Positions 1-49,099 of a stretch of 49,099 bases of DNA are shown one piece after another (positions within the stretch are counted from its first letter, which is position 1; every line of letters starts with the position of its first letter). A model generated the notes under the pieces. The model saw only the letters and a program-made list of their open reading frames with translations. It did not search any database and was not told the origin of the DNA. The translations under genes and the position numbers were made by a program. The stretch lies in contig NZ_DF967965.1 of NCBI RefSeq assembly GCF_001050195.2, forward strand, positions 2,534,014 to 2,583,112, given 5' to 3'. This DNA comes from Anaerolinea thermolimosa (lineage in GTDB: Bacteria > Chloroflexota > Anaerolineae > Anaerolineales > Anaerolineaceae).

Positions 1-44
1 AGTGAGCGTGCAGGGGCTCGAACCCTGAACCAATGGCTTAAAAG
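1..44 (-). repeat. attL: attL: 3' half of tRNA-Lys(TTT), direct repeat copy 1
   Basis: The 44 bases are identical to 49056-49099. Read on the minus strand they give a tRNA 3' half: anticodon loop CTTTTAA (anticodon TTT), a T-arm with loop TTCGAGC between CAGGG and CCCTG, and an acceptor 3' strand CACGCTC. Tyrosine integrases often recombine in the anticodon-loop to 3'-end part of tRNA genes, and the integrase gene lies 45 bp away. I infer the left attachment site. The 5' half of the tRNA is not in the window. Confidence 0.85.
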
Positions 45-45
45 A

Positions 46-74
46 CTGCCTCTTCCTTTTACTGGAAGAGGCAG
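46..74 (-). terminator. Terminator after the integrase gene
   Basis: An 11-bp perfect hairpin (CTGCCTCTTCC and its complement, 7-nt loop) lies between the integrase stop codon and attL. On the minus strand it is followed by TCTTTTAA, so it probably ends integrase transcription before the tRNA fragment. Confidence 0.7.
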
Positions 75-88
75 ATTGCTGAAATCAG

Positions 89-955
89 TTAGTTCATGAT
101 CTTATCGTAGATTTCCTGAAGTTCATCGTGAGAAAAACGTCCGTAGAAGTCAATCGTAACCTGAACATTAGAATGTCCCATGAGATGACTCACTATACCG
201 ATACTGACACCCTCTGCAAGTAATTTGCGGGCATAGGCATGGCGAAAGGAATGTGGGTTCCATTTTCCGGTTATTTCTGATTTGCGAGCCAATCGTTTGA
301 ACAACTGGTAAATTCCGTTTGGCTTCAACAAGAAGACACGTTGATCTTCCGTTTCCCCTCTCTTTTCTAACCAGTTCTCCAGGGCAATCGCAGTGCGAGA
401 AGAAAAGAAAACCACACGCTCTTTTTGCCCTCCCCTCCCTTTTTCTAACACGATAGCACGCCGCTTATTTATATCCAAGCGATCTACGGTGAGACCGGCT
501 ACACCGCCTAATCTTACACCCGTGTCTGCTACAAATAAAACCAGCGCCAAGTCTCTTTCTGGCGTTCCTGTTTTTGATGCCGCATCTAACATTTTTGATA
601 AATCCTCTGCTTGAATTCCTGCCGGGGATTTCTGGGGAAGAGGCGGACGCCTCAATTTTTTTGCTGGATTCATAGCAATGTATCCCTCATCAACTGCCCA
701 GCGAAACAGCCTTTTCCATCCTCTAATAAAATTAAAAAGGGTATAAGGCTCACGATCATCTGTTCTCATCAAATGAAACAGATTGATAAGGTCGCTTGTA
801 GTTATAGAATTTGTTTCTCTGTCTCCAAGATGAGCCACAAGGGGACGCAGATAGAAGACATACCATCTCAGCGTAGAATCTGAAATAAAACCCTTTTGTG
901 ACTCCAAAAATACGTCAACCAATTCTTTGACAGTGGGGGTTTTGTTTGTAATCAT
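89..955 (-). CDS. int: Tyrosine integrase of the element
   Basis: Tyrosine recombinase of 288 residues, expected to catalyse site-specific integration and excision at the tRNA-Lys att site. An N-terminal SAM-like core-binding domain (about residues 8-95) precedes the catalytic domain. The catalytic set is visible: Arg in DTGVRLGG, H-x-x-R in HSFRHAY, His in LMGHSN and the Tyr nucleophile in FYGRFS. I chose the ATG at 955 because GAGGAGGT lies 4 nt upstream; a start at 1006 would add 17 residues without a better ribosome site. The gene is monocistronic, faces attL and ends in its own hairpin terminator. An inverted-repeat-rich region (1029-1144) lies upstream and may hold its promoter and arm sites. 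Confidence 0.93.
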   Translation of the reverse strand: MITNKTPTVKELVDVFLESQKGFISDSTLRWYVFYLRPLVAHLGDRETNSITTSDLINLFHLMRTDDREPYTLFNFIRGWKRLFRWAVDEGYIAMNPAKKLRRPPLPQKSPAGIQAEDLSKMLDAASKTGTPERDLALVLFVADTGVRLGGVAGLTVDRLDINKRRAIVLEKGRGGQKERVVFFSSRTAIALENWLEKRGETEDQRVFLLKPNGIYQLFKRLARKSEITGKWNPHSFRHAYARKLLAEGVSIGIVSHLMGHSNVQVTIDFYGRFSHDELQEIYDKIMN

Positions 956-1028
956 ATTTACCTCCTCGACGATGTAAGTTTTGGTATCGAGGAGCGATTC
1001 TCCCACCTCAAAACGGCTCTGAAAGTTA

Positions 1029-1144
1029 AAAAATTTGCTATACTAATACCCAAAGACAAATCAGCCCCGCCGGTCTCCGCGGCGAGGCTGAGAAGGCAAC
1101 GCGGTGAAGGCGCGTTGCGGCAAAACCTAGCATAGCAAATTTTT
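1029..1144. repeat. Compound inverted repeat upstream of the integrase
   Basis: A perfect 13-bp inverted repeat (AAAAATTTGCTAT at 1029-1041, complement at 1132-1144) encloses two GC-rich hairpins: one with arms CAGCC/GGCTG near 1062-1090, one with arms CAACGCG/CGCGTTG near 1098-1117. A third hairpin (GCCCGCGCA arms, about 1149-1180) follows. No ORF is credible here. It could be an integrase/Xis arm region, a small MITE-like insertion or a regulatory RNA. Confidence 0.5.
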
Positions 1145-1233
1145 GCCGCCCGCGCAAGTGAACCGCAACTGCGCGGGCGATCATACTTAACAGGTAAGGA
1201 CTTAATCAAATTTTTTTGATTTTGGAGTAACCG

Positions 1234-1876
1234 ATGAGCGAGCCGTTGCAAAAATTTCAAAGCCTGCTCCGTGAATTGTTTGAGTTCGACAGCGCCGACC
1301 TGGATTTCGGCATCTACCGCATTATGAACCGCAAGCGGCAGGTCATTGAGCGCTTTATCACCGAAGACCTGCCAAAAGCCGTTGCCGAAGAATTGCGCAG
1401 CGGCGCGCTGGCCGAACAAGAGCAGGCGCGCAAGGCTCTGGAGGAGGCCCGCCGAAAAGTGCTGGACGCCTTGGGTGAAGATGCGCTGGACGCAAACGGT
1501 AACCTAGCCGAAAAGTATCGTGAGACCAAAACCGGCAAGGAGTACCTGGAAGCCCAAACAAAAGCTGCGGATACTCATCCCATCGAGGCGCTGGAAGCCG
1601 CCATTTACAATCACCTCTACACCTTCTTTAGTCGCTACTGGCAGGACGGCGACTTTATCTCCAAACGCCGCTACTCCAAGAAAGAACGCTACGCCATCCC
1701 CTACAACGGCGAGGAGGTGTATCTCTACTGGGCCAATCACGACCAGTACTACGTCAAAACCGGCGAGTACTTCACCGATTACACCTACAAAGCCCCCAAC
1801 GGCGTGACCATACACTTCAAACTCCGGCAGGCCGATGTGGAGCAGAACAACGTCAAGGGTGATAAACGCTTCTTCC
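1234..1876 (+). pseudogene. Truncated type III-like DNA methyltransferase, N-terminal fragment
   Basis: The reading frame opens at an ATG after TTTTGGAGTAACCG and encodes about 210 residues resembling the N-terminal region of large adenine-specific site-specific methyltransferases (type III Mod / DUF559-free class). Recognisable segments include ELFEFDSADLDFGIYRIMN and FFSRYWQDGDFISKRRYS. Family members run to roughly 900-1100 residues, and the catalytic DPPY and SAM-binding motifs lie beyond the break, so this product cannot methylate. Near 1876 the sequence switches into the antisense strand of an HTH gene start (see 1877-1932), and the frame then stops at 1923. This is a deletion junction, not a natural end. 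Confidence 0.8.
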
Positions 1877-1932
1877 AGCCCGTACTTGCGGGCGGCTTCG
1901 GAAAGTGGTATAAATACAGGTAAGGTAGCCAT
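1877..1932 (-). pseudogene. Fragment of an excisionase-like HTH gene (first about 18 codons)
   Basis: From the ATG at 1932 the minus strand encodes MATLPVFIPLSEAARKYGL. This is nearly the same as the start of the HTH gene at the right end (MLTLPTFIPLSEAARKYGL, 48431). Nucleotide similarity also covers CCCGTACTTGCGGGCGGCTT. The gene breaks off at the junction with the methyltransferase fragment. It sits just behind the DUF6941-like gene, in the same direction. It is part of the remnant of a second related element. Confidence 0.8.
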
Positions 1933-1934
1933 GA

Positions 1935-2330
1935 TCAATCCTCAGGTATTACAGGCACGGCAAGGGTATGAACGAGATTACCGTTGAAATAAAACTCGAA
2001 CTGGTAATTTCCTGCGGTAGGGACATCAATGTCAAAGTGAAAAGTATTGGGGGCGGTGTGAGAAAAAGGGTCGAAAATGGCGCTAACGCGGTTGGTCTCA
2101 GCCACAATGCGCCGGTCTCCTTCGCTTCCAGTGACGGCAGTTACCTTTACAGAGAAATCCCCCTCGCTCTCTCCCTCGTCAGCCTCCCAGCCGCAGACAA
2201 TATCGAACCGAATTCTGGCGGGGAAATTTCCGGCGCTGAAGTAATCGAAAATTCCAATAGCTGAATGCCGCTTACGCCAGTGGTCGTATATCCCATAATC
2301 GCAAACAATGACGTATTTCGGTCGAATCAT
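1935..2330 (-). CDS. DUF6941-like protein
   Basis: A 131-residue soluble protein starting MIRPKYVIVCDYG. An N-terminal strand followed by cysteine and aspartate (IVCDYG) and a C-terminal beta-rich half (FHFDIDVPTAGNYQFEFY) match the pattern of the DUF6941 family, small proteins of unknown function common in bacterial genomes. The ATG at 2330 was chosen because upstream codons run into structured repeat DNA. The stop codon overlaps the region just before the truncated HTH gene, so the two formed an operon in the ancestral element. The present right end of the element has no such gene, so it is a leftover of the relic element or a cargo gene. Confidence 0.5.
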   Translation of the reverse strand: MIRPKYVIVCDYGIYDHWRKRHSAIGIFDYFSAGNFPARIRFDIVCGWEADEGESEGDFSVKVTAVTGSEGDRRIVAETNRVSAIFDPFSHTAPNTFHFDIDVPTAGNYQFEFYFNGNLVHTLAVPVIPED

Positions 2331-2361
2331 CCTGAACCTTGACAATTCCTCATGAGGTATT

Positions 2362-2493
2362 CCCGACACGGGGCGCAACGACCCTTCCTGCAGGCCAGGG
2401 TCACCGGTCGGCGGGTTAGCCACCGGTCTATCTGCGCGCTCGCTCGCCGGGTAGGCGAGCGTGGATCCTGGACAGGTCACGCCCCGTGTCGGG
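2362..2493. ncRNA. Conserved structured RNA or DNA element, copy 1
   Basis: A perfect 14-bp outer stem (2362-2375 with 2480-2493) encloses a stem CCAGG/CCTGG, a hairpin CCGGT-GGC/GCC-ACCGG and a variable GC hairpin. The right end of the element holds a second copy (48474-48605) in which the inner stem reads CGAGG/CCTCG, a compensatory change. Conserved unpaired blocks include GGCGCAACGACCC, CTATC and GACAGGTCA. In both copies it lies directly 5' of a leftward operon linked to the HTH gene. The transcribed strand is uncertain. Confidence 0.6.
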
Positions 2494-2671
2494 GGTATCT
2501 CCCCGTCTGAGTCGGAGACTGGAGAGGGAAAGGCAAGAAGCAAGAATGTTTATGACATTCTCACTCCCCTGTGACAGGGCTTGTGCGAAGAAGGGATCGT
2601 GTCCACCTCTTGCACTCGCTCACCCATCCCTTTCCATCTCCGACTGCATTTTTGTCTGGTAAAGTACACAA

Positions 2672-2728
2672 AACGCACCCAGGGATCCATCGGGTGCGTT
2701 GTGGGGACAGACAGGGATGGCATCCCTG
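2672..2728. repeat. att-proximal double hairpin of the relic element
   Basis: Hairpin AACGCACCC/GGGTGCGTT (2672-2680, 2692-2700) has loop AGGGATCCATC. A second hairpin CAGGGATGGCATCCCTG (2712-2728) can also pair with that loop. The same two-hairpin layout, with different stem bases, lies next to attR (48994-49046). Confidence 0.6.
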
Positions 2729-2734
2729 TGAAAG

Positions 2735-2776
2735 TCGCGGGGAGTGGATTCGAACCACTGACCTCCGGGTTATGAG
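2735..2776 (-). tRNA. 3' half of an initiator tRNA-Met(CAT), fossil att site
   Basis: The minus strand reads from anticodon loop CTCATAA through the CCC anticodon-stem strand, T-arm AGTGG-TTCGAAT-CCACT and acceptor strand CCCCGCG plus discriminator A. The three consecutive C residues after the loop and an acceptor that would pair with CGCGGGG are initiator-tRNA hallmarks. The 5' half is absent: the fragment stops at the anticodon loop, exactly as attL and attR do. It is not a functional tRNA gene. Confidence 0.75.
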
Positions 2777-2778
2777 GA

Positions 2779-3060
2779 TTAAAGCCCCCAGACTTTTACA
2801 GGTGAGGCACGCTGATGTACACCATTTATATCTGTTTGAGCAATTGCCAGGTATCTACGAACCATATCCAAGGTTTCATGCCCTAAAATTGCTTGCAGTG
2901 TAAAAACGTCTCCACCGTTTCTCAAGAAATTTATTGCGAAAGTATGTCGGAATCGGTGAGGATGAGCATCGTTTACACCAGCCCGGTCGCCAATTCGCCG
3001 AATAATCAATCTGAGTGCGTCTCGGCTAAGAACATTCCCTTGCTCTGTTTTGAATACATA
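2779..3060 (-). pseudogene. C-terminal fragment of a second tyrosine integrase
   Basis: About 93 codons remain, including HRFRHTFA (H-x-x-R), ILGHETLD (His) and RRYLAIA (Tyr nucleophile). The frame can be followed upstream through QGNVLSRDALRLIIRR to about 3060 without a start, so the N-terminal domain and the first catalytic Arg are lost. The stop codon lies 2 bp from the tRNA-fMet fragment, mirroring the integrase-att spacing at the left end of the present element. This shows that the relic was an element of the same kind with a different tRNA target. Confidence 0.85.
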
Positions 3061-3068
3061 TATATAAT
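3040..3068 (+). promoter_or_regulatory. Probable promoter of the cytosine methyltransferase gene
   Basis: TTGCTC (3040-3045), 17 bp, TATAAT (3063-3068) in a local AT-rich patch, 43 bp before the methyltransferase ATG. It overlaps the dead integrase fragment. Confidence 0.55.
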
Positions 3069-3111
3069 AAATTATAGTGCATCAAAAAATCCTAGGTATT
3101 CATTGCAAAAC

Positions 3112-4182
3112 ATGAAAGCAGCAAATAATTGTGCGGTGGTAGATCTGTTTGCGGGAGCAGGTGGGCTTACTCACGGATTCATCCTTGAGGGTTTCAATGT
3201 TGTTGCTGGCATAGAAGCCGATGAAACTTATCGCTATGCCTATGAACATAACAATCCCGGAGCAAGGTTTGTTCATTCTAGGGTCGAACACGTAACATCG
3301 GAATATCTTTGTTCTCTATATCCAAAAGGCAGCATCAAAATACTGGCCGGATGTGCACCATGTCAACCTTTCTCTTCTTACACGCGTACCCATCAGAAAC
3401 ATACTAGTTGGCAGTTGTTATACGAGTTCATTCGCCTAATAAAGGGAGTTCAACCAGAAATAGTTACGATGGAAAACGTCCCAAGGCTCAAAACCTACGA
3501 AAATGGTAAGGTCTTCGGGGATTTTTTGTCCGTCCTGCGAGAAAACGGCTACTTCGTCACATGGAACGACAGAATTTATGCTCCCGATTATGGAGTTCCT
3601 CAAAGTCGCTATCGTCTGATCCTTATTGCTTCCAAGTTTGGGGAAATTACATTCCTGCCTCCCACGCACACTCCGTCAAATTATCCAACGGTACGGGATG
3701 CTATCGGAAATTTAGAGCCCATTCCAGCTGGCGGGGTGAGTCCAAACGACCCACTTCATCGTTCGATGAATTTGTCCCTTTTGAACCTTGAAAGGATTAG
3801 ATTTTCCAAACCTGAAGGAACTTGGCGAGATTGGCCCGAGGAACTGAGAGCGAATTGTCACAGGAAACTTAGTGGAAAGTCCTATCACAATGTGTACGGC
3901 AGGATGTCTTGGGACAAGCCTGCACCAACCATCACTACTCAATGTTATGGTTTCGGAAATGGACGTTTCGGGCACCCGGAACAAGACAGGGCAATTTCCA
4001 TGAGAGAGGCTGCTCTTTTGCAAACCTTTCCCCCAAATTATCAATTCTTCGATCCTACGATCCAGAAAGTATCCATCAGTCGTTTGGCTATGATGATCGG
4101 AAACGCGGTACCTGTTGCCTTGGCACGGATGATTGCTCAGAGCATTAGCAATCACCTCTCTGAACATTTCGTAGGAAGTTGA
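3112..4182 (+). CDS. DNA (cytosine-5-)-methyltransferase
   Basis: Complete C5 methyltransferase of 356 residues that transfers methyl groups from S-adenosylmethionine to cytosine in a short DNA site. Motif I is DLFAGAGGLTHGF near the N-terminus, motif IV is GCAPCQPFS with the catalytic Cys, motif VI holds ENV, motif VIII is QSRYRLIL and motif X is MIGNAVPVALA. The target-recognition region lies between VIII and X, about residues 215-300. The ATG at 3112 gives the usual N-terminus; the frame is open further upstream but over the dead integrase. Low GC relative to the pilus genes suggests separate acquisition. No cognate endonuclease remains. It could be orphan or protect against host restriction. 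Confidence 0.92.
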   Translation: MKAANNCAVVDLFAGAGGLTHGFILEGFNVVAGIEADETYRYAYEHNNPGARFVHSRVEHVTSEYLCSLYPKGSIKILAGCAPCQPFSSYTRTHQKHTSWQLLYEFIRLIKGVQPEIVTMENVPRLKTYENGKVFGDFLSVLRENGYFVTWNDRIYAPDYGVPQSRYRLILIASKFGEITFLPPTHTPSNYPTVRDAIGNLEPIPAGGVSPNDPLHRSMNLSLLNLERIRFSKPEGTWRDWPEELRANCHRKLSGKSYHNVYGRMSWDKPAPTITTQCYGFGNGRFGHPEQDRAISMREAALLQTFPPNYQFFDPTIQKVSISRLAMMIGNAVPVALARMIAQSISNHLSEHFVGS

Positions 4183-4185
4183 ACG

Positions 4186-4536
4186 ATGCCATCCAAGATC
4201 AATTTCAGTGTGGATGCCCGTCTCCTTCAAGAATTGGGAGAAGGACTGGTTGGAAAACCTTCCACTGCACTAGCGGAATTGATAAAGAACGCCTATGATG
4301 CTGACGCAACATTGGTAAAGGTAAATGGTTTGAAGCAAAAAATATTAGAACTCCTTCAATCCCAGTCGGATATACTAACTATTCACTATGAACTACTGAA
4401 TCAAAATCCTGATTTATTTGGAACTTTTCGTAGAAAACACCTTACAAAAGCTCTAAGTGAGTTACAAGAGGAAGGTTGCATTGAACTCGATGGTGCACCA
4501 AGCAAAGAGATTACAAAAGTCTATCGCCTAAAATAG
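4186..4536 (+). pseudogene. Chimeric remnant: GHKL ATPase N-terminus fused to another gene's C-terminal winged helix
   Basis: The first 45 residues (VDARLLQELGEGLVGKPSTA, then ALAELIKNAYDADA) are the N-box of a GHKL/HATPase_c-type ATPase of the kind often encoded beside DNA methyltransferases. After about residue 46 the similarity ends. The remaining 70 residues (for example LLNQNPDLFGTFRRKHLTKA and ALSELQEEGCIEL) look like a small winged helix, fitting the C-terminus of a three-Cys-motif partner (TcmP) protein, the usual neighbour of DUF5131. I infer an in-frame deletion that fused two neighbouring genes. The ATP lid is missing, so no ATPase is expected. Four bases separate it from the methyltransferase stop. 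Confidence 0.65.
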
Positions 4537-4583
4537 AATATTAGTGCTATGATTTTATATGTAATAAGATTCTTAGGGAAAAT

Positions 4584-5309
4584 ATGTCTGCTAAGTCTTT
4601 GATTGAATGGACCGAATCCACTTGGAATCCTCTCACAGGTTGCAATAAGGTTAGTCCGGGTTGCAAACACTGTTATGCTGAACGGATGGCAAAACGCTTG
4701 AAAGCAATGGGTCAGGAAAAGTACAGGGATGGATTTCGATTAACATTGCATCCAGAAGTTCTCGAAGAACCCCTATCCTGGCATAAACCTCAGATAATCT
4801 TCGTCAACTCGATGAGCGATTTATTCCACGAGAACGTTCCTGTTGAGTTCATTCAAAGCGTTTTTGATGTCATGCGCCGCGCTTACTGGCACACTTTCCA
4901 GGTTCTTACTAAACGCGCCGAACGATTGCTTGAACTTGATCCAATTCTTGAATGGTCTGCAAATGTCTGGATGGGGGTTAGCGTTGAAAATCAGAATTAC
5001 ACCATCCGTATTGACCGTTTGAGGAACACTCATGCAAAAGTAAAGTTTCTATCGCTAGAACCTCTCTTAGGTCCAATTTCAAATTTGAATCTAGAAGGGA
5101 TAAACTGGGTTATTGTCGGCGGCGAATCTGGACCGCATGCCCGTCCCATCAAGCCTGAATGGGTGCGTGAAATTCGTGATCAATGCCTTGCGAATCATGT
5201 TCCCTTCTTTTTCAAGCAATGGGGCGGAACGAATAAGAAAAAATCGGGGCGGTTGTTGGATGGTGAGAGATGGGATCAAATGCCGATACTTGTCCCTTCG
5301 GGGGACTAA
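4584..5309 (+). CDS. DUF5131 (phage Gp37/Gp68-like) three-Cys-motif protein
   Basis: A 241-residue protein with the motif [17 protein letters not shown] (C-x6-C-x2-C) near residues 19-28, which gives the family its three-Cys name and resembles the cluster-binding loop of radical SAM enzymes. Other family signatures are [31 protein letters not shown] and [12 protein letters not shown]. The family is frequent in phages and mobile elements; its reaction is not established to my knowledge. It usually pairs with a TcmP gene, of which only a tail seems to remain just upstream. A hairpin terminator follows at 5353-5380. Confidence 0.85.
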
Positions 5310-5352
5310 ACTAAAACAATCACCCAATCAATTTTGAAATAACATAAAAACG

Positions 5353-5380
5353 CAAGAGAGGGCTTTTCTGCCCTCTCTTG
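5353..5380 (+). terminator. Terminator after DUF5131
   Basis: An 11-bp perfect stem CAAGAGAGGGC/GCCCTCTCTTG with a 6-nt loop lies 44 bp after the DUF5131 stop. Confidence 0.65.
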
Positions 5381-5383
5381 TGT

Positions 5384-5413
5384 TCCGTAGTTCGCGGATG
5401 CTCTGTCGAAGCG
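5384..5413 (+). other. Inverted partial copy of the downstream tRNA (5' half without most of the D-arm)
   Basis: The plus strand carries TCCGTAGTTC and GCTCTGTCGAAGCG, both identical to parts of the tRNA encoded on the minus strand at 5499-5571, with a 6-nt linker in place of the D-loop. It is an inverted, shortened duplicate. It is not a functional tRNA. Confidence 0.7.
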
Positions 5414-5462
5414 CTTTTATCATAGCAGTTATCTCGGAAAAATTCAAGTTTTGCAACAAAAA

Positions 5463-5487
5463 AGAGGGCTGGGTAAGCCCTCTTTTT
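5463..5487. terminator. Hairpin terminator, possibly bidirectional
   Basis: Stem AGAGGGCT/AGCCCTCT with loop GGGTA, flanked by A-rich and T-rich runs, lies between the tRNA-like copy and the tRNA gene. On the minus strand it would end the tRNA transcript. Confidence 0.65.
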
Positions 5488-5498
5488 CGGCAAGTGGG

Positions 5499-5571
5499 TG
5501 CCCCCGGCGGGATTCGAACCCGCATCTTACGCTTCGACAGAGCGCTATTCTATCCCTTGAACTACGGAGGC
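5499..5571 (-). tRNA. tRNA gene, anticodon GTC, isotype ambiguous (Asp by anticodon, Arg-like body)
   Basis: A 73-nt cloverleaf is complete: acceptor GCCTCCG/CGGGGGC, D-stem GTTC/GAAT, anticodon stem GCGCT/AGCGT with loop CTGTCGA, 5-nt variable loop, T-arm GCGGG-TTCGAAT-CCCGC and discriminator A. CCA is not encoded. Loop position 33 is T and 34-36 read GTC, which decodes Asp. However, the discriminator is A, not the usual G of tRNA-Asp, and the D-loop pattern GGATA with the acceptor sequence resembles tRNA-Arg. It is cargo of the element; whether it is charged is unknown. Confidence 0.85.
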
Positions 5572-5589
5572 ACGACCATTTGCCAAGGT

Positions 5590-5633
5590 CACCCTGGGCG
5601 GAGTTGCGCCGCCCCAAGACACTACGCAGGGTG
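5590..5633 (-). ncRNA. tRNA-top-half-like element, copy E
   Basis: The minus strand folds into a 7-bp acceptor-like stem CACCCTG/CAGGGTG stacked on a T-arm-like hairpin GGCGG-CGCAACT-CCGCC, with a 13-nt linker containing GTAGTG. It follows the Rad52-like gene and its terminator. It is one of at least eight such folds in the window (others at 6652, 8867, 8956, 9350, 9845, 47210 and 47315). Confidence 0.6.
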
Positions 5634-5636
5634 AGG

Positions 5637-5662
5637 AAAAAGCCGGACGGGGTCGTCCGGCT
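5637..5662 (-). terminator. Terminator after the Rad52-like gene
   Basis: On the minus strand AGCCGGACG/CGTCCGGCT forms a strong stem followed by a T-run, 18 bp after the Rad52-like stop codon. Confidence 0.7.
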
Positions 5663-5679
5663 CAGTTCCCGCAGGGGGG

Positions 5680-6453
5680 TTAGCCCGCATAGGCGGCTTG
5701 CAGACTGAGAAACGCCCGCGCCATGCGCTGCAAGCGGATGTTTTCGGGCTTGCCCTGGGGGTCAAATCCCTTGCCATCCGTGTTCGCAGCCCAGCGGATC
5801 CAGCCTTTTCCCGCCGCGCCGCTTGCCCACACCTCGGCAAGCGTTTTGTCTTTCATCTTGCCGAAGTGGATCACGGTCTGACCGGGGTCAGCCAATTCAC
5901 CTTCCGCAGCCGGTTCAGCGGCAGGCGCAGGCTGTGGCGCATTCACTTTGCCGTTGCCGTTCGGGACGTTCTGGAAGTCCTTGTGAGACCGCAGCCCGAG
6001 GTACACGCTTTCCTGGAAGCCAATGTTGGATACGGCGTTCCCCAAAGCGTTGGTGATCGCTCCCTTCATGGCGTAGGCAATGTTGGCGTTTTCGCTGGCC
6101 CCGGTGGCATGGACGGAGCAGTTGTACTGGGTGTTCCCGTCAACAAGCTTGTACCAGAAGCGCAGGTGGGTGAGAACGGCCACATAAACGCCGTATTCAT
6201 TGCCCCTCGCATTGGTGCGGGACTCGTAGCGGTGTTCCAGATCGCCGGGGGAAAATTCGTACCCCCAGCCGTAACCGCACAACCCGAAAATGTGATTCAG
6301 GACTTTCCGCATCCAGTTCGGGTCAATGTCGGTCAGGTCAACCGCTCCCGGTACCGCCTTGTACGCTCCGGCGGGCAACTCTTGGTCTAATTGCTGAACG
6401 GCTTGCTCCAGCGTCAGACCGGTCAAAGTGAAGATGGAAGAAAGAGTGGACAT
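5680..6453 (-). CDS. Rad52-like single-strand annealing protein
   Basis: A 257-residue protein related to Rad52/DdrA-type annealing proteins, which bind ssDNA and pair complementary strands. The core spans about residues 25-165: DIDPNWMRKVLNHIFGLCGY, then VTH-like strand VAVLTHLRFWYK, and the helix-turn segment ALGNAVSNIGFQESVYLG that matches the conserved end of the Rad52 domain. A Pro/Ala-rich linker (about 175-195) leads to a C-terminal domain with HFGKMKDKTLAEVW, similar to exonuclease-X/replication-associated C-terminal domains (putative quorum-like helper for nucleases). Start at 6453 is set by AAAGGAGG 8 nt upstream. It likely supports recombination or recircularisation of the transferred DNA, together with SSB (45783). 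Confidence 0.75.
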   Translation of the reverse strand: MSTLSSIFTLTGLTLEQAVQQLDQELPAGAYKAVPGAVDLTDIDPNWMRKVLNHIFGLCGYGWGYEFSPGDLEHRYESRTNARGNEYGVYVAVLTHLRFWYKLVDGNTQYNCSVHATGASENANIAYAMKGAITNALGNAVSNIGFQESVYLGLRSHKDFQNVPNGNGKVNAPQPAPAAEPAAEGELADPGQTVIHFGKMKDKTLAEVWASGAAGKGWIRWAANTDGKGFDPQGKPENIRLQRMARAFLSLQAAYAG

Positions 6454-34885: not shown

Positions 34886-35419
34886 TCACGGCTCGTACCT
34901 GCGGATCTCCTCGTCCTCCAGCAGGTACAGCAGGATGTCCAGCGCAAGGTGCAGCAGTACGGCGTCCCTGTCGTTGTCTGCGTCCTCTCGCGTTGTTCCC
35001 CGCTTCCACGGCGGTCGAATCATCGCCATCACCGCCTCGCGCAGGGGCGTCTCTCCCCGCGTGTGGTACAGGTCGGACACCCACCAGCCTACAAAACGAT
35101 CCGTCACCGCCGCAGTGTTTCCGCCACCCAGAAACGGCAGCAGGTACGGCGGAACCCGCCGCTTTTTCTGCGCCAGCGGATACGCCCGTACCACCGGGAG
35201 CATGAAGCCGTTATCGAGAATCAGTGCAGGCAGGTCGTACTCCCCCTCGTCCTTCGGGAGGATGTCCCGTACCGTCCGCTCCCCGGCTTTCAACGCCAGC
35301 CATTCCATCAGGCACACCGGCTGTGCCTGTGCCGTGACCTGCATCAGCGGACAGCCGTGTTTCTCACAGCGGTCGAATTCGTTCAGGTTGTAGTCGTGTC
35401 TGCGAAACGCGAAACTCAT
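34886..35419 (-). CDS. Hypothetical protein with N-terminal Cys cluster
   Basis: A 177-residue soluble protein. Residues 17-40 contain CEKHGC and a further Cys (CLMEWLALKAGER), which could hold one zinc. The C-terminal half is helical and acidic (LHLALDILLYLLEDEEIRRY). Family not recognised. It starts on the stop codon of the XerC-like gene (4-bp overlap), so the pair is cotranscribed. Confidence 0.55.
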   Translation of the reverse strand: MSFAFRRHDYNLNEFDRCEKHGCPLMQVTAQAQPVCLMEWLALKAGERTVRDILPKDEGEYDLPALILDNGFMLPVVRAYPLAQKKRRVPPYLLPFLGGGNTAAVTDRFVGWWVSDLYHTRGETPLREAVMAMIRPPWKRGTTREDADNDRDAVLLHLALDILLYLLEDEEIRRYEP

Positions 35420-36297
35420 CACCCCTCCAGTCTGCTCAGTGCCCGCTCCAGATCACGCTCTCCGGGTGTCACGTACACCCGGGTGGCGTTCAAACTGCTG
35501 TGTCCCAGCAGCGCCGCCACCTCCTGCAATCCCACCCCGGCATCCACCAGGTTCTTTGCCAGCGTGTGCCTGAGCGTGTGCGGGTGTACTTCCACCCCCG
35601 CCCGCCGTCCCATCTCCGCCAGACGCCGCTGCACCCCCGATACGGTCATCTCAAACATCCGTCCCGGCTGTCCTCCGCGCTCTTCCAGCCACGCCTTCAG
35701 CGCCCGCCGCGCTTCGGCATTCAACGGCACTTTGCGCGCCTTCGCCCCCTTGCCGCTGCGCACCTGCACCCACCCTGACCGTTCACCCATCTGCACATCC
35801 GAGACCTCCACCGCACAGGCTTCGCTCACCCGCAGCCCGGTGTGCAGCAGAAACACCACCAGCGCCCAGTCCCGCACCGCCAGCCGACGCCGGGCAGGTG
35901 TATCTGCCGCCTGTATCCCCCGTTCCGCTTCCCGCACCAGCCGCCACTGCTCGCTCCGCTCCAGCCAGCCCGGTGAGAGTTTCTCCTCCCGCGGCATCTT
36001 CAGCCGCGCCGTCGGGTTGCGCTCGATTTTTCCAGCCGCCATCCCCCACCGGCAGTACGCCCGTAAGGCCATCAGCCGCCGCCGGATCGTGGCGGCGCTT
36101 GCCTTCTGCACCGTTTGCAGCCATGCACGGTACTCCCGCACATCCGCCGGGGTGACGTCCTCAACCCGCAATCCTCGCCCATTGGTCTGCTCAAACCAGC
36201 GTTCAAACTGGCTCATGTCCGCCAGGTATCCCCGCACCGTCACATCACTGCGGTCTTGCTCCCGCAGCCAGGTTTCAAAGTCTTGCAAATCTGTCAC
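35419..36297 (-). CDS. XerC/D-like tyrosine recombinase
   Basis: A second complete tyrosine recombinase, 292 residues. N-terminal core-binding domain about 1-95 (VRGYLADMSQFERWFEQ), catalytic domain with Arg in LHTGLRVSEAC, Lys in SGKGAKARKVPL, HTLRHTLAKN, LLGHSSLNATRVYV and the Tyr in RVYVTP. It is far from the att sites and therefore more likely resolves multimers of the excised circle or acts at another site. It overlaps the gene at 34886 and the metalloprotease gene by 4 bp each, which makes it part of an operon, unlike the terminal integrase. Confidence 0.88.
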   Translation of the reverse strand: MTDLQDFETWLREQDRSDVTVRGYLADMSQFERWFEQTNGRGLRVEDVTPADVREYRAWLQTVQKASAATIRRRLMALRAYCRWGMAAGKIERNPTARLKMPREEKLSPGWLERSEQWRLVREAERGIQAADTPARRRLAVRDWALVVFLLHTGLRVSEACAVEVSDVQMGERSGWVQVRSGKGAKARKVPLNAEARRALKAWLEERGGQPGRMFEMTVSGVQRRLAEMGRRAGVEVHPHTLRHTLAKNLVDAGVGLQEVAALLGHSSLNATRVYVTPGERDLERALSRLEG

Positions 36298-47314: not shown

Positions 47315-47362
47315 TTCAGGCGGACGGGACTCGAACCCGTCATCACGCACCTGCCGCCTGAA
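47315..47362 (-). ncRNA. tRNA-top-half-like element, copy I, canonical T-loop
   Basis: Minus strand: 8-bp stem TTCAGGCG/CGCCTGAA, linker of 12-13 nt (CAGGTGCGTGAT) and a T-arm ACGGG-TTCGAGT-CCCGT with the standard tRNA T-loop. D-arm and anticodon arm are absent, so it is not a tRNA gene but an acceptor/T-arm mimic. Confidence 0.6.
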
Positions 47363-47414
47363 TGGAGGGAAAGAAGTGAGCCAACACCGCTAAACAAAAA
47401 CCCTGCCGGGGTCG

Positions 47415-47697: not shown

Positions 47698-47976
47698 CTA
47701 GTGTATTAACTGCCACCAAATACCCAGAGCAAATATAAGTAAAGCCAATATTGCTACAATTGGTCCCAAAATTCTTTCAATTTTGCCTTGCTTTTCTAGC
47801 TGTTCCCAGCACAAGTCACAATAATTTCCTACGCCACTGTGTGAAACCCCAAGTGCGAATTTAGGATTGCCATATCGAATATGAAGATCGCAATAAACTT
47901 TGCCACACTTAGTACATTTTTTTCGTGCTTGGTTTGAACAAGTTTCATGTTGACATACACCATTGCCTTCTTTCAT
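47698..47976 (-). CDS. Zinc-finger protein with C-terminal membrane helix
   Basis: A 92-residue protein: CQHETCSNQARKKCTKCGKV, YCDLHIRYG and NYCDLCWEQ give a B-box/AN1-like array of Cys, Asp and His that could bind two zinc ions, followed by a transmembrane helix (ILGPIVAILALLIFALGIWW). AT-richer than the pilus genes. It overlaps the HTH gene by 4 bp, so the two are an operon at the right end. The tail-anchored design suggests a membrane-bound adaptor. Confidence 0.65.
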   Translation of the reverse strand: MKEGNGVCQHETCSNQARKKCTKCGKVYCDLHIRYGNPKFALGVSHSGVGNYCDLCWEQLEKQGKIERILGPIVAILALLIFALGIWWQLIH

Positions 47977-48431
47977 AAGGCACTCCTCTGTACTGGAATC
48001 CCATTAGCTGCAAATATTTTTTTGCCTTGCTTTTTCTGTGGACGGTATATTAATTCACAGAAAGCCACATCCTGTTCACTAATCAGTACTTTCTGACCTG
48101 CTTTCCCCTTTACAGAAATAAAACCTCTCCTTATCCATTGATAAAGGGTAGTGTACGGTATGCGATATTTTTTAGATGCCTCGTTAATACCAAGATATGA
48201 ATTACTAAGAGATGAAAATTGTTGGTACTCCGGCAAATCCTCTTTTCGCGCACCAGAGCCCCTTTCCTGCTCCGCCCGTTTTTTGACTTCATCTTCGCTC
48301 ACAACCATTTCTCCCGCGATCACTCCCGCCCTGATTTTACCTTTCTCAACCAGGGCGCGCAAGCGAGCCTCGTCCAACCCGTACTTGCGGGCGGCTTCGG
48401 AAAGAGGTATAAAGGTGGGTAGGGTAAGCAT
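47973..48431 (-). CDS. Tandem excisionase-like HTH protein (candidate Xis/RDF)
   Basis: A 152-residue protein with two MerR/AlpA-type winged HTH units: FIPLSEAARKYGLDEARLRA, VEKGKIRAGVIAGEMVVSED (about 5-50) and YLGINEASKKYRIPYTTLYQ, WIRRGFISVKGKAGQKVLIS (about 85-130). Small proteins of this kind act as excisionases or recombination directionality factors next to tyrosine integrases. AAAGGA before the ATG at 48431 supports the start. A broken copy of its first codons lies at 1877-1932. The structured element at 48474-48605 lies directly upstream. Confidence 0.75.
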   Translation of the reverse strand: MLTLPTFIPLSEAARKYGLDEARLRALVEKGKIRAGVIAGEMVVSEDEVKKRAEQERGSGARKEDLPEYQQFSSLSNSYLGINEASKKYRIPYTTLYQWIRRGFISVKGKAGQKVLISEQDVAFCELIYRPQKKQGKKIFAANGIPVQRSAL

Positions 48432-48473
48432 GTCAATCCTTTCGTCTTGAACCTTAGTAATCCGAGTTACCTC

Positions 48474-48605
48474 CAGGGCAGGGCGCAACGACCCTCTCCG
48501 CGGGCGAGGATCACCGGTCGGCGGGCAGCCACCGGCCTATCAGCGCACAGCCCCAACGGGTGGTCGGGGCGGATCCTCGACAGGTCATCCCCCGGTCCCG
48601 GGTTG
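48474..48605. ncRNA. Conserved structured RNA or DNA element, copy 2
   Basis: Shares with copy 1 (2362-2493) the blocks GGGCGCAACGACCCT, ATCACCGGTCGGCGGG, AGCCACCGG, CTATC and GACAGGTCA. Stem CGAGG/CCTCG replaces CCAGG/CCTGG of copy 1. The outer stem is weaker here. On the plus strand it is followed after about 110 nt by an intrinsic terminator (48714-48750), which would suit a plus-strand RNA; on the minus strand it would be a 5' leader of the HTH gene. Confidence 0.6.
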
Positions 48606-48713
48606 CCTCAAAACAATCTGCCGCGCGGGCCTGACGTCCCCAAGCAGCATCAGCCGGGGTAGGCTGAGGGAGGACACGGACGGCAGACGGGTAGTCTGCA
48701 CGATCAGGCTTTG

Positions 48714-48750
48714 GCAACCGGAGACCGGGTGGGTCTCCGGGTTGCTTTTT
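48714..48750 (+). terminator. Rightward intrinsic terminator
   Basis: GCAACC-GGAGACC pairs with GGTCTCC-GGGTTGC, followed by TTTTT on the plus strand. No plus-strand gene precedes it, which suggests a plus-strand noncoding transcript from the 48.45-48.7 kb region. Confidence 0.65.
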
Positions 48751-48756
48751 AATGTG

Positions 48757-48936
48757 CTACGATTTGCTTTTCAGCAAAAAAGACAGGACAACGCCTAAAA
48801 CGGCTGAAACTCCAATCCCAATCGCCAAAGCAATCAACGGCGACTGGGAAAGAACCGGAAAACGATCCAAAAAAGCTTGACCAATTACTGCACCTGCTAT
48901 TACAATTACAACTGTTGCAAGATTTTCGATTTTCAT
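48757..48936 (-). CDS. Small two-helix membrane protein, 59 residues
   Basis: Encodes MKIENLATVVIVIAGAVIGQ, a short turn (AFLDRFPVLSQSP) and LIALAIGIGVSAVLGVVLSF ending in LLKSKS: two transmembrane helices in a hairpin. GAAAGGAAATT precedes the ATG at 48936. AT-rich for the element. Size and topology are holin-like, but no lysis genes are present; an envelope accessory or leaky-membrane function cannot be distinguished. It is the rightmost gene, transcribed away from attR. Confidence 0.65.
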   Translation of the reverse strand: MKIENLATVVIVIAGAVIGQAFLDRFPVLSQSPLIALAIGIGVSAVLGVVLSFLLKSKS

Positions 48937-48993
48937 AATTTCCTTTCTTCAGTCCCGGTAACCGCCCGGGACTGAATCTTTAATCCAGATACA

Positions 48994-49046
48994 CGCAAAG
49001 CGCCCAGGGAATCCATCAGGCGCTTTGCGGGGGACAGGGATGGAAT
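48994..49046. repeat. att-proximal double hairpin of the present element
   Basis: An 11-bp perfect hairpin CGCAAAGCGCC/GGCGCTTTGCG (48994-49029) has loop CAGGGAATCCATCA. The following hairpin AGGGATGGAATCCCT can also pair with the loop (AGGGAATCCAT against ATGGAATCCCT). The same layout occurs at 2672-2728 beside the fossil att site. It may be an accessory recombination site or a terminator for the tRNA. Confidence 0.6.
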
Positions 49047-49055
49047 CCCTGCGGG

Positions 49056-49099
49056 AGTGAGCGTGCAGGGGCTCGAACCCTGAACCAATGGCTTAAAAG
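49056..49099 (-). repeat. attR: attR: 3' half of tRNA-Lys(TTT), direct repeat copy 2
   Basis: Identical to bases 1-44. Together they bracket the whole element. Whichever end joins the chromosomal 5' half restores an intact tRNA-Lys gene. Confidence 0.85.

Follow-up and report, generated by a model that had tools for sequence, protein, structure and literature searches.

A relic tRNA-fMet attachment junction inside a tRNA-Lys element of Anaerolinea thermolimosa

Composite islands are mostly inferred from neighbors with one shared target. The accretion in tandem of ICEs, IMEs, and decayed CIMEs that have a target in common is well described in a review (PMC5704250), which cites Pavlovic 2004 and Bellanger 2011. 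The present locus resembles such cases, in which decayed neighbors leave att cores beside a live element and tandem or composite forms arise by site-specific recombination. However, the elements there share one target and the relic is at the border (PMC5704250), whereas the relic described here lies inside the element and belongs to another tRNA, its core being tRNA-fMet and the outer cores tRNA-Lys. CGI48 of Shewanella putrefaciens, with GI21 inside it, is similarly an island in a tRNA gene that holds a second island of other specificity, but GI21 is whole and excisable (PMC8978831), whereas only an apparently dead attP-type junction, with no attL/attR pair, is present here. A third likeness is to the tripartite ICE3 of Mesorhizobium, a single element with attP sites for several integrases that differ in target; its three integrases and the directionality factors work (PMC5882170), whereas the second integrase and excisionase are broken here and the tRNA-fMet integrase is reduced to residues 238-330. 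No paper on this element family was found in the literature on integrative elements of Anaerolinea/Anaerolineae, among the matches listed, which hints that the family may be undescribed.

The window, i.e., the whole stretch of 49,099 nucleotides analyzed (C1:2534014-2583112 of the own genome, G000), is one tRNA-Lys element, as indicated by flanking tRNA-Lys halves, an integrase gene on the left, and an excisionase-type gene on the right (Table 1). It spans the first base of the left core to the last base of the right core, and the two cores, each a 44-bp 3' half of tRNA-Lys(TTT) (1-44 and 49056-49099), are identical. An intact tRNA-Lys lies just past the right end (L010:3757-3829), so that the window combines direct tRNA 3'-half repeats, an integrase at one end, and an intact tRNA at the other, as expected of a tRNA-integrated element. 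The right arm is 98.7% identical over 557 bp to that of a tRNA-Lys element in another genome (G034). The term "element" is used instead of ICE because no relaxase was found among 25 distinct window frames scanned, each against at least one library; matches among these frames included a secretion ATPase (T2SSE), CpaB/RcpC, and a serine-rich HerA-like ATPase (NF033849). Beyond N runs of 476 and 601, of which a part may represent withheld sequence, exactly 85 bases of the element ends recur in both flanks. As 85 bases exceeds the core length, these repeats suggest an assembly branch that may stem from right end-core-left end sequences of the present element, present in the sample as circles or tandem copies.

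Table 1. Positions of the features of the tRNA-Lys element, its relic junction, and its flanks
Feature	Position	Strand	Details
Left att core, present element	1-44	-	tRNA-Lys(TTT) 3' half from anticodon loop; identical to 49056-49099 and to intact tRNA-Lys
Tyrosine integrase, present tRNA-Lys element	89-1006	-	PF00589, E=6.8e-27; 99% to integrase of G034 tRNA-Lys element
Folded noncoding element beside integrase start	1032-1181	+	Matches in left ends of other elements
Variable cargo zone holding the relic	1126-5345		Gap in G034 tRNA-Lys element
Type III-like DNA methyltransferase, N-terminal remnant	1234-1867	+	Cut by junction 1; PADLOC MTase_III, E=2.4e-42, profile 11-194 of 1057
Junction 1	1868-1876	+	Nine bases common to methyltransferase and excisionase
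Excisionase (HTH) 5' stub, second element	1868-1932	-	About 21 codons; 83% to present xis start 48367-48432
DUF6941 gene, right end of second element	1935-2330	-	PF22091, E=1.6e-10; 97.2% to G003 element at tRNA-Arg
Folded element of right end	2354-2501	+	98.6% to two G003 right ends
Double hairpin directly before core	about 2660-2732	+	86% to right end of same-genome tRNA-Cys element
Relic att core, tRNA-fMet 3' half	2733-2776	-	43/44 to native gene; 44/44 to G003 left-end core
tRNA-fMet integrase, C-terminal piece	2779-3061	-	PF00589, E=3.2e-14 for 2779-3009; cut by junction 2
C5-cytosine DNA methyltransferase, cargo right of junction	3112-4182	+	PF00145, E=5.1e-61, profile 3-323 of 324, full length
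Excisionase, present element (right end)	47973-48432	-	TIGR01764, E=2.3e-6, just below cut-off; PHROG excisionase, E=1.1e-10
Right arm, present element	48481-49099	+	Folded element, double hairpin 48990-49055, core 49056-49099
Flank repeats of element ends	L009:14440-15001 and L010:3070-3799		85 bases = 44-bp core + 41

Within this element, positions 1868-3061 hold, in order, the truncated 5' end of an excisionase gene, a DUF6941 gene, a folded element, a double hairpin, half of a tRNA-fMet, and the C terminus of an integrase. The layout repeats the right end, core, and left end of the present element with other sequences. Such a right end-core-left end shape is expected only in a circle or tandem array, not in a single integrated element. 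The core covers tRNA-fMet from the anticodon loop to the 3' end (44 bp). Its fMet label follows the earlier note, ARAGORN calling tRNA-Met(CAT), and a GGG/CCC anticodon stem is typical of initiator tRNAs. The excisionase stub is 94-95% identical to the excisionase genes of two elements in G003, and the folded element is 78-79.5% identical to the copy in the present right end (match span 2371-2496; 122 bases). All pieces that the earlier note had listed at 1877-3060 were present in the order given, with collinear matches to G003 (97.2% and 98.8%) that exceed chance. Its claim that both neighbors are truncated held for the HTH and integrase genes, but the HTH stub has about 21 codons rather than 18.

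Donor ends were located in other genomes. An integrase near-identical to the relic piece (99-100% of 93 residues) occurs in a long open frame in two of 150 relatives besides the own genome: G003, a genome of the same genus (330 residues, L040/L059), and G086 (329 residues, L038/L062). The next best match is ≤67%. In both genomes, the integrase gene directly adjoins a tRNA-fMet half, and the relic piece is 98.9% identical to residues 238-330 of the 330-residue G003 frame. G003 has one right end at an intact tRNA-fMet (L060) and one at tRNA-Arg(GCG) (L058); L059 and L060, which are on different contigs, are inferred to be the two ends of one element. The relic matches the G003 tRNA-fMet right end at 94.4% (1868-1938), 97.3% (2320-2501), and 92.2% (2649-2776), including 43/44 bases of the tRNA within the core. 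DUF6941 is missing from that right end and is therefore optional in right ends of the family. The left-end matches are 98.8% over 2733-3061 (329 bp) in G003 (L059) and 99.7% over 2734-3061 in G086 (L062), while the G003 tRNA-Arg right arm gives an 867-bp match at 97.2% (1868-2732), which stops one base before the core.

The G003 tRNA-fMet right-end and left-end matches overlap at 2733-2776, exactly the 44-bp core, and this meeting of right and left matches identifies an attP site or an internal tandem junction. Positions 1868-3061 are thus almost certainly an attP-type junction (right arm-core-left arm) of a tRNA-fMet element of the same family. A second related element with a tRNA-fMet target, as envisaged in the earlier note, therefore has known counterparts in the tRNA-fMet ends of G003 and G086: the search for such elements in relatives was positive (G003 L059/L060, G086 L062), integrase and right end both match best there, and unrelated genes did not match better than family ends. 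Chance order of unrelated fragments was rejected by the collinear 97-99% matches. The present element was likewise rejected as the source of the junction, since the G003 ends match better. The relic right arm is closer to the G003 tRNA-Arg and tRNA-fMet right ends (93-99%) than to the present right end (78-84%), which indicates that the junction was imported.

The core-integrase junction is rare: an exact pattern scan of genome_contigs gave two stretches in other genomes, a shorter exact pattern gave none in viral_contigs, and a search with ≤3 mismatches across 396 genomes of the class gave two, the own genome among them. These counts bear on the idea that the locus was misassembled as a chimera from the DNA of two organisms or replicons, which is scarcely credible. 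A contamination estimate of 4.69%, a contig bounded by gaps, and two gene-cutting junctions would fit a chimera, but neither junction lies at a gap, the relic differs from both G003 and G086 by mismatches, and, with only two other-genome records in the exact scan, there is no third copy to explain a misjoin.

The import appears, from sequence identity, to be recent, because the relic is 92-99% identical to the donor ends, compared with 73.6% and 71% for host DNA. Host DNA beside tRNA-fMet is largely collinear between the own genome (G000) and G003, with identities of 70-83% across ten BLAST pieces, two of them off the diagonal, and a weighted value of 73.6% for 4,381 bases; the 71% comes from another chromosomal stretch, which we read as sdh genes. 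The native tRNA-fMet (C1:913,916-913,987, + strand) lies 1.62 Mb from the relic core in the opposite orientation. No family element was found at this locus, which is otherwise collinear with that of G003. A donor still residing at the tRNA-fMet of this genome was rejected, as the locus has only a degenerate recombinase piece, which is 42.7% identical over 143 residues to the L054 integrase type beside tRNA-fMet in G015 and less similar to the relic integrase (29.3% over 164 residues).

Both the excisionase and the integrase are truncated at the relic, and the junction is accordingly predicted to be dead. That the relic core and right arm still form a putative attP for the tRNA-fMet integrases of other elements is highly improbable, as is the corollary that the tRNA-Lys element could be moved in trans or could invert the 1.62 Mb between the cores. 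A core 100% identical to the G003 left-end core, a right arm conserved up to the core, and the opposite orientation of the relic core and native tRNA-fMet would be compatible with a working site; however, neither recombination gene is whole, the left arm is truncated at 3061, and tRNA-fMet in this genome (L014) showed no family element.

Two breaks delimit the relic. Junction 1, placed by aligning the window with G029, G001, and the two G003 excisionase genes, joins it to a methyltransferase: methyltransferase similarity runs to about 1890, excisionase similarity begins at 1868, and 1868-1876 is identical in the G029 methyltransferase and the G003 tRNA-fMet excisionase (9-bp microhomology). 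The G029 homologue is a 1,039-residue open frame, of which only residues 25-244 are present in the window; the rest of the type III methyltransferase was not found elsewhere in the window. At junction 2, identity with the tRNA-fMet integrase ends at 3061, and the window holds no close copy of this integrase beyond residues 238-330, its two other recombinases being 24-28% identical to it. The earlier note had spoken of a methyltransferase remnant joined to the relic. The C5 gene to the right, at 3112-4182, covers profile positions 3-323 of 324 and is no remnant; the truncated methyltransferase is the type III one to the left (1234-1867). Within 3112-4536, a stub at 4186 resembles BbrUII/HgiDII restriction enzymes (NF050001, E=9.3e-6, far below the whole-protein cut-off) and is fused to a weakly matched winged-helix piece. 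The C5 methyltransferase is probably the orphan of a broken restriction system. Both breaks fall in a stretch (1126-5345) that is regarded as a variable cargo zone because its flanks abut in the G034 tRNA-Lys element: sequence matching 2-1125 (96.5%) is directly followed there by sequence matching 5346-5501 (93%), and G034 has lost part of the left folded element at the abutting point.

The history that we hold, with moderate confidence, to be the right one is that a tRNA-Lys and a tRNA-fMet element fused, most of the second then being lost in deletions. A tRNA-fMet element in circular (or tandem) form would have joined the tRNA-Lys element, probably through homologous recombination in end or backbone sequences common to both, and the product would have been a two-core cointegrate seated at tRNA-Lys by the Lys integrase. 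A first deletion may then have run from inside the left-end type III methyltransferase gene to inside the tRNA-fMet excisionase gene, at the 9-bp microhomology, and a second deletion, or replacement of cargo, would have cut the tRNA-fMet integrase, so that the second core survived as a relic within the cargo zone. Donor matches that overlap by exactly the core, high relic identity against diverged host DNA together with a native tRNA-fMet locus that lacks a family element, the microhomology, and the absence from the window of the lost methyltransferase and integrase parts all favor this history, as do the 85-base flank repeats if read as circles or tandem copies. Against it, the window has one backbone only, with no second copy to prove a cointegrate, and the right flank of the relic (the C5 methyltransferase) is unlike the type I restriction genes recognized by eye beside the tRNA-fMet left ends of G003 and G086. 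Moreover, the large serine-rich backbone ATPase of the window matched 7 of 11 genomes but not G003; the donor backbone may thus differ, so that homologous recombination through the backbone is a conjectural route.

The main rival, although unlikely, is that an excised circular tRNA-fMet element broke and one of its pieces, with the attP, was end-joined into an already rearranging cargo zone with no cointegrate. The piece is only about 1.2 kb, the microhomology at junction 1 would suit end joining, and the zone has other cut genes (the restriction stub at 4186 and the type III methyltransferase). However, after a plain insertion the remainder of the methyltransferase should lie on the far side of the insert; as this is absent from the window, a deletion would be needed even in the case of fragment capture.

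Another junction of this kind indicates that tandem or circular forms occur in the family and so adds to the case for fusion followed by deletions. At G007 L102:2384-3555, a right end that is truncated is followed by a tRNA-Lys(CTT) core (43 bases at 100%) and then by a frame resembling an integrase; we take this to be a same-target tandem junction, left of a presumed single element ending at L065. This is an ordinary case of same-target accretion, unlike the window relic. It would provide a precedent for a same-target tandem at tRNA-fMet, the internal junction of which was later moved into the tRNA-Lys element by homologous recombination, but no such tandem was seen at tRNA-fMet in the loci read and one more step is required, making this origin improbable. 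The interpretation in the earlier note of a related element with another tRNA target, once in tandem with or recombined into this one, appears supported. Elsewhere in G007 (L064:7400-9190), a right end at a partial tRNA-Val core continues, by eye, into another island with an integrase-like frame.

The structures that flank the relic core are shared across the family. A double hairpin precedes the core in 19 right ends with eight kinds of tRNA target [Lys(TTT), 4; Lys(CTT), 2; fMet, 2 (relic included); Arg, 1; Cys, 2; Pro, 5; Val, 2; Asn, 1], a nonexhaustive set consisting of those met in BLAST comparisons and excluding the tRNA-Met right ends L012 and L109, in which BLAST found no hairpin, and the L011 stub. 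Seventeen pairs are predicted for the double hairpin, and two of them show two-sided changes, in 6 of the 19 sequences each, which gives modest support. For the right-end folded element (2354-2501 and 48481-48603), 42 pairs are predicted from seven right ends, eight with changes on both sides. The left-end folded element at 1032-1181 (15 aligned sequences) has 27 predicted pairs, four with changes on both sides, and its counterparts are at L059, L062, L015, L016, L094, L096, L097, L101-L105, L107, and L093. It adjoins the integrase start in left ends with a recognized integrase; several of 19 places, e.g., L015, L093, L097, L101, and L103-L106, were not used as left ends, no integrase having been found nearby. 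No Rfam match to the folded elements was found, either in 1-6000 with E values up to 1 or across the whole window with gathering scores; both scans reported the tRNA-Asp, and the 1-6000 scan also gave four subthreshold hits elsewhere.

Right arms are shared between elements with different targets: tRNA-Arg of G003 and the relic (97.6% over 700 bp), tRNA-Cys of G086 and the window (94.8% over 504 bp), tRNA-Lys(CTT) of G007 and tRNA-Pro of G086 (97.5% over 321 bp), and tRNA-Asn and tRNA-Lys of G056 (94.8% over 291 bp). Same-target right arms range from 98.9% (window versus G034) down to 74.4% (tRNA-Lys of G056 versus G086). Integrases of different targets are 24-45% identical, and left ends of different targets become homologous again near 995-997, where the integrase starts. 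Over 265 residues, the tRNA-Pro integrases of G028 and G007 share 83.8% identity, although their right ends, paired by target since they are on different contigs, differ in hairpin type. Hairpin-region distance averaged 0.102 within genomes (17 pairs) versus 0.166 between genomes (154 pairs; permutation P=0.0006), and 0.138 for the same target (20 pairs) versus 0.163 for other targets (151 pairs; permutation P=0.079), several genomes in the test being of one genus and the labels therefore not independent. Right arms follow the host genome rather than the tRNA target. Their sharing across targets favors the fusion history, whereas the slightly closer, nonzero relation of same-target right ends and the fact that the nearest hairpin neighbor of the relic is the same-target G003 element count against it, as does the partial nonindependence of the genomes.

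Since right arms track genome and not target, co-resident elements seem to trade targeting cassettes. We conclude that right arms and core-integrase units have been exchanged between co-resident elements, and the relic is best explained as a remnant of such a fusion. Less certainly, such fusions may be the family's way of exchanging the targeting cassette (core plus integrase). The targeting unit would be an att core and integrase cassette between two conserved folded flanks, the double hairpin in the right arm and the folded element by the integrase start, which would be brought together on either side of it only when the element is circular or in a tandem array. Elements that reside in one genome but differ in tRNA target might fuse through these flanks and swap cassettes, with the losing cassette decaying. 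This reading, under which the window element would have passed through a two-cassette (Lys and fMet) state, is tentative and below even probability. A relic attP of different tRNA specificity inside an element, with donor ends at 92-99% identity, is close to direct evidence of different-target joining and, with right arms common across tRNA targets, offers a testable route by which integrative elements change insertion site. It suggests that islands fuse and trade the parts that choose their insertion site.

A comparison with 40 tRNA genes of the own genome, 6 cut from its loci, and a library of 35 3' halves gave only short matches in the window besides the tRNA-Lys ends, the tRNA-fMet core, and a whole tRNA-Asp. 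Among the 51 tRNA matches in the genome, one is this tRNA-Asp, and four (C6:108822, C1:2526524, C1:3138576, and C1:2526673) were left out of the comparison and are taken for duplicates because each scores the same as a fetched one. The tRNA-Asp carried by the element (5495-5572, - strand) is 78% identical to a chromosomal copy, with counterparts of 89% and 83% in G007:C1 and G086:C87 and none at the matching place in G034. The short matches cluster at 47318-47345, where a tRNA-like minihelix (47318-47366, - strand) with an acceptor-like stem and T arm was recognized by eye and is not called by ARAGORN; it sits in a noncoding stretch common to the right ends of other elements. The element also contains a second complete-looking tyrosine recombinase (35419-36297, - strand; PF00589, E=1.2e-31). 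Elsewhere in the chromosome, a lone 46-bp piece of an excisionase gene of the family occurs at L011:8389-8438 (G000:C1:358,392), away from the tRNAs called in that locus.
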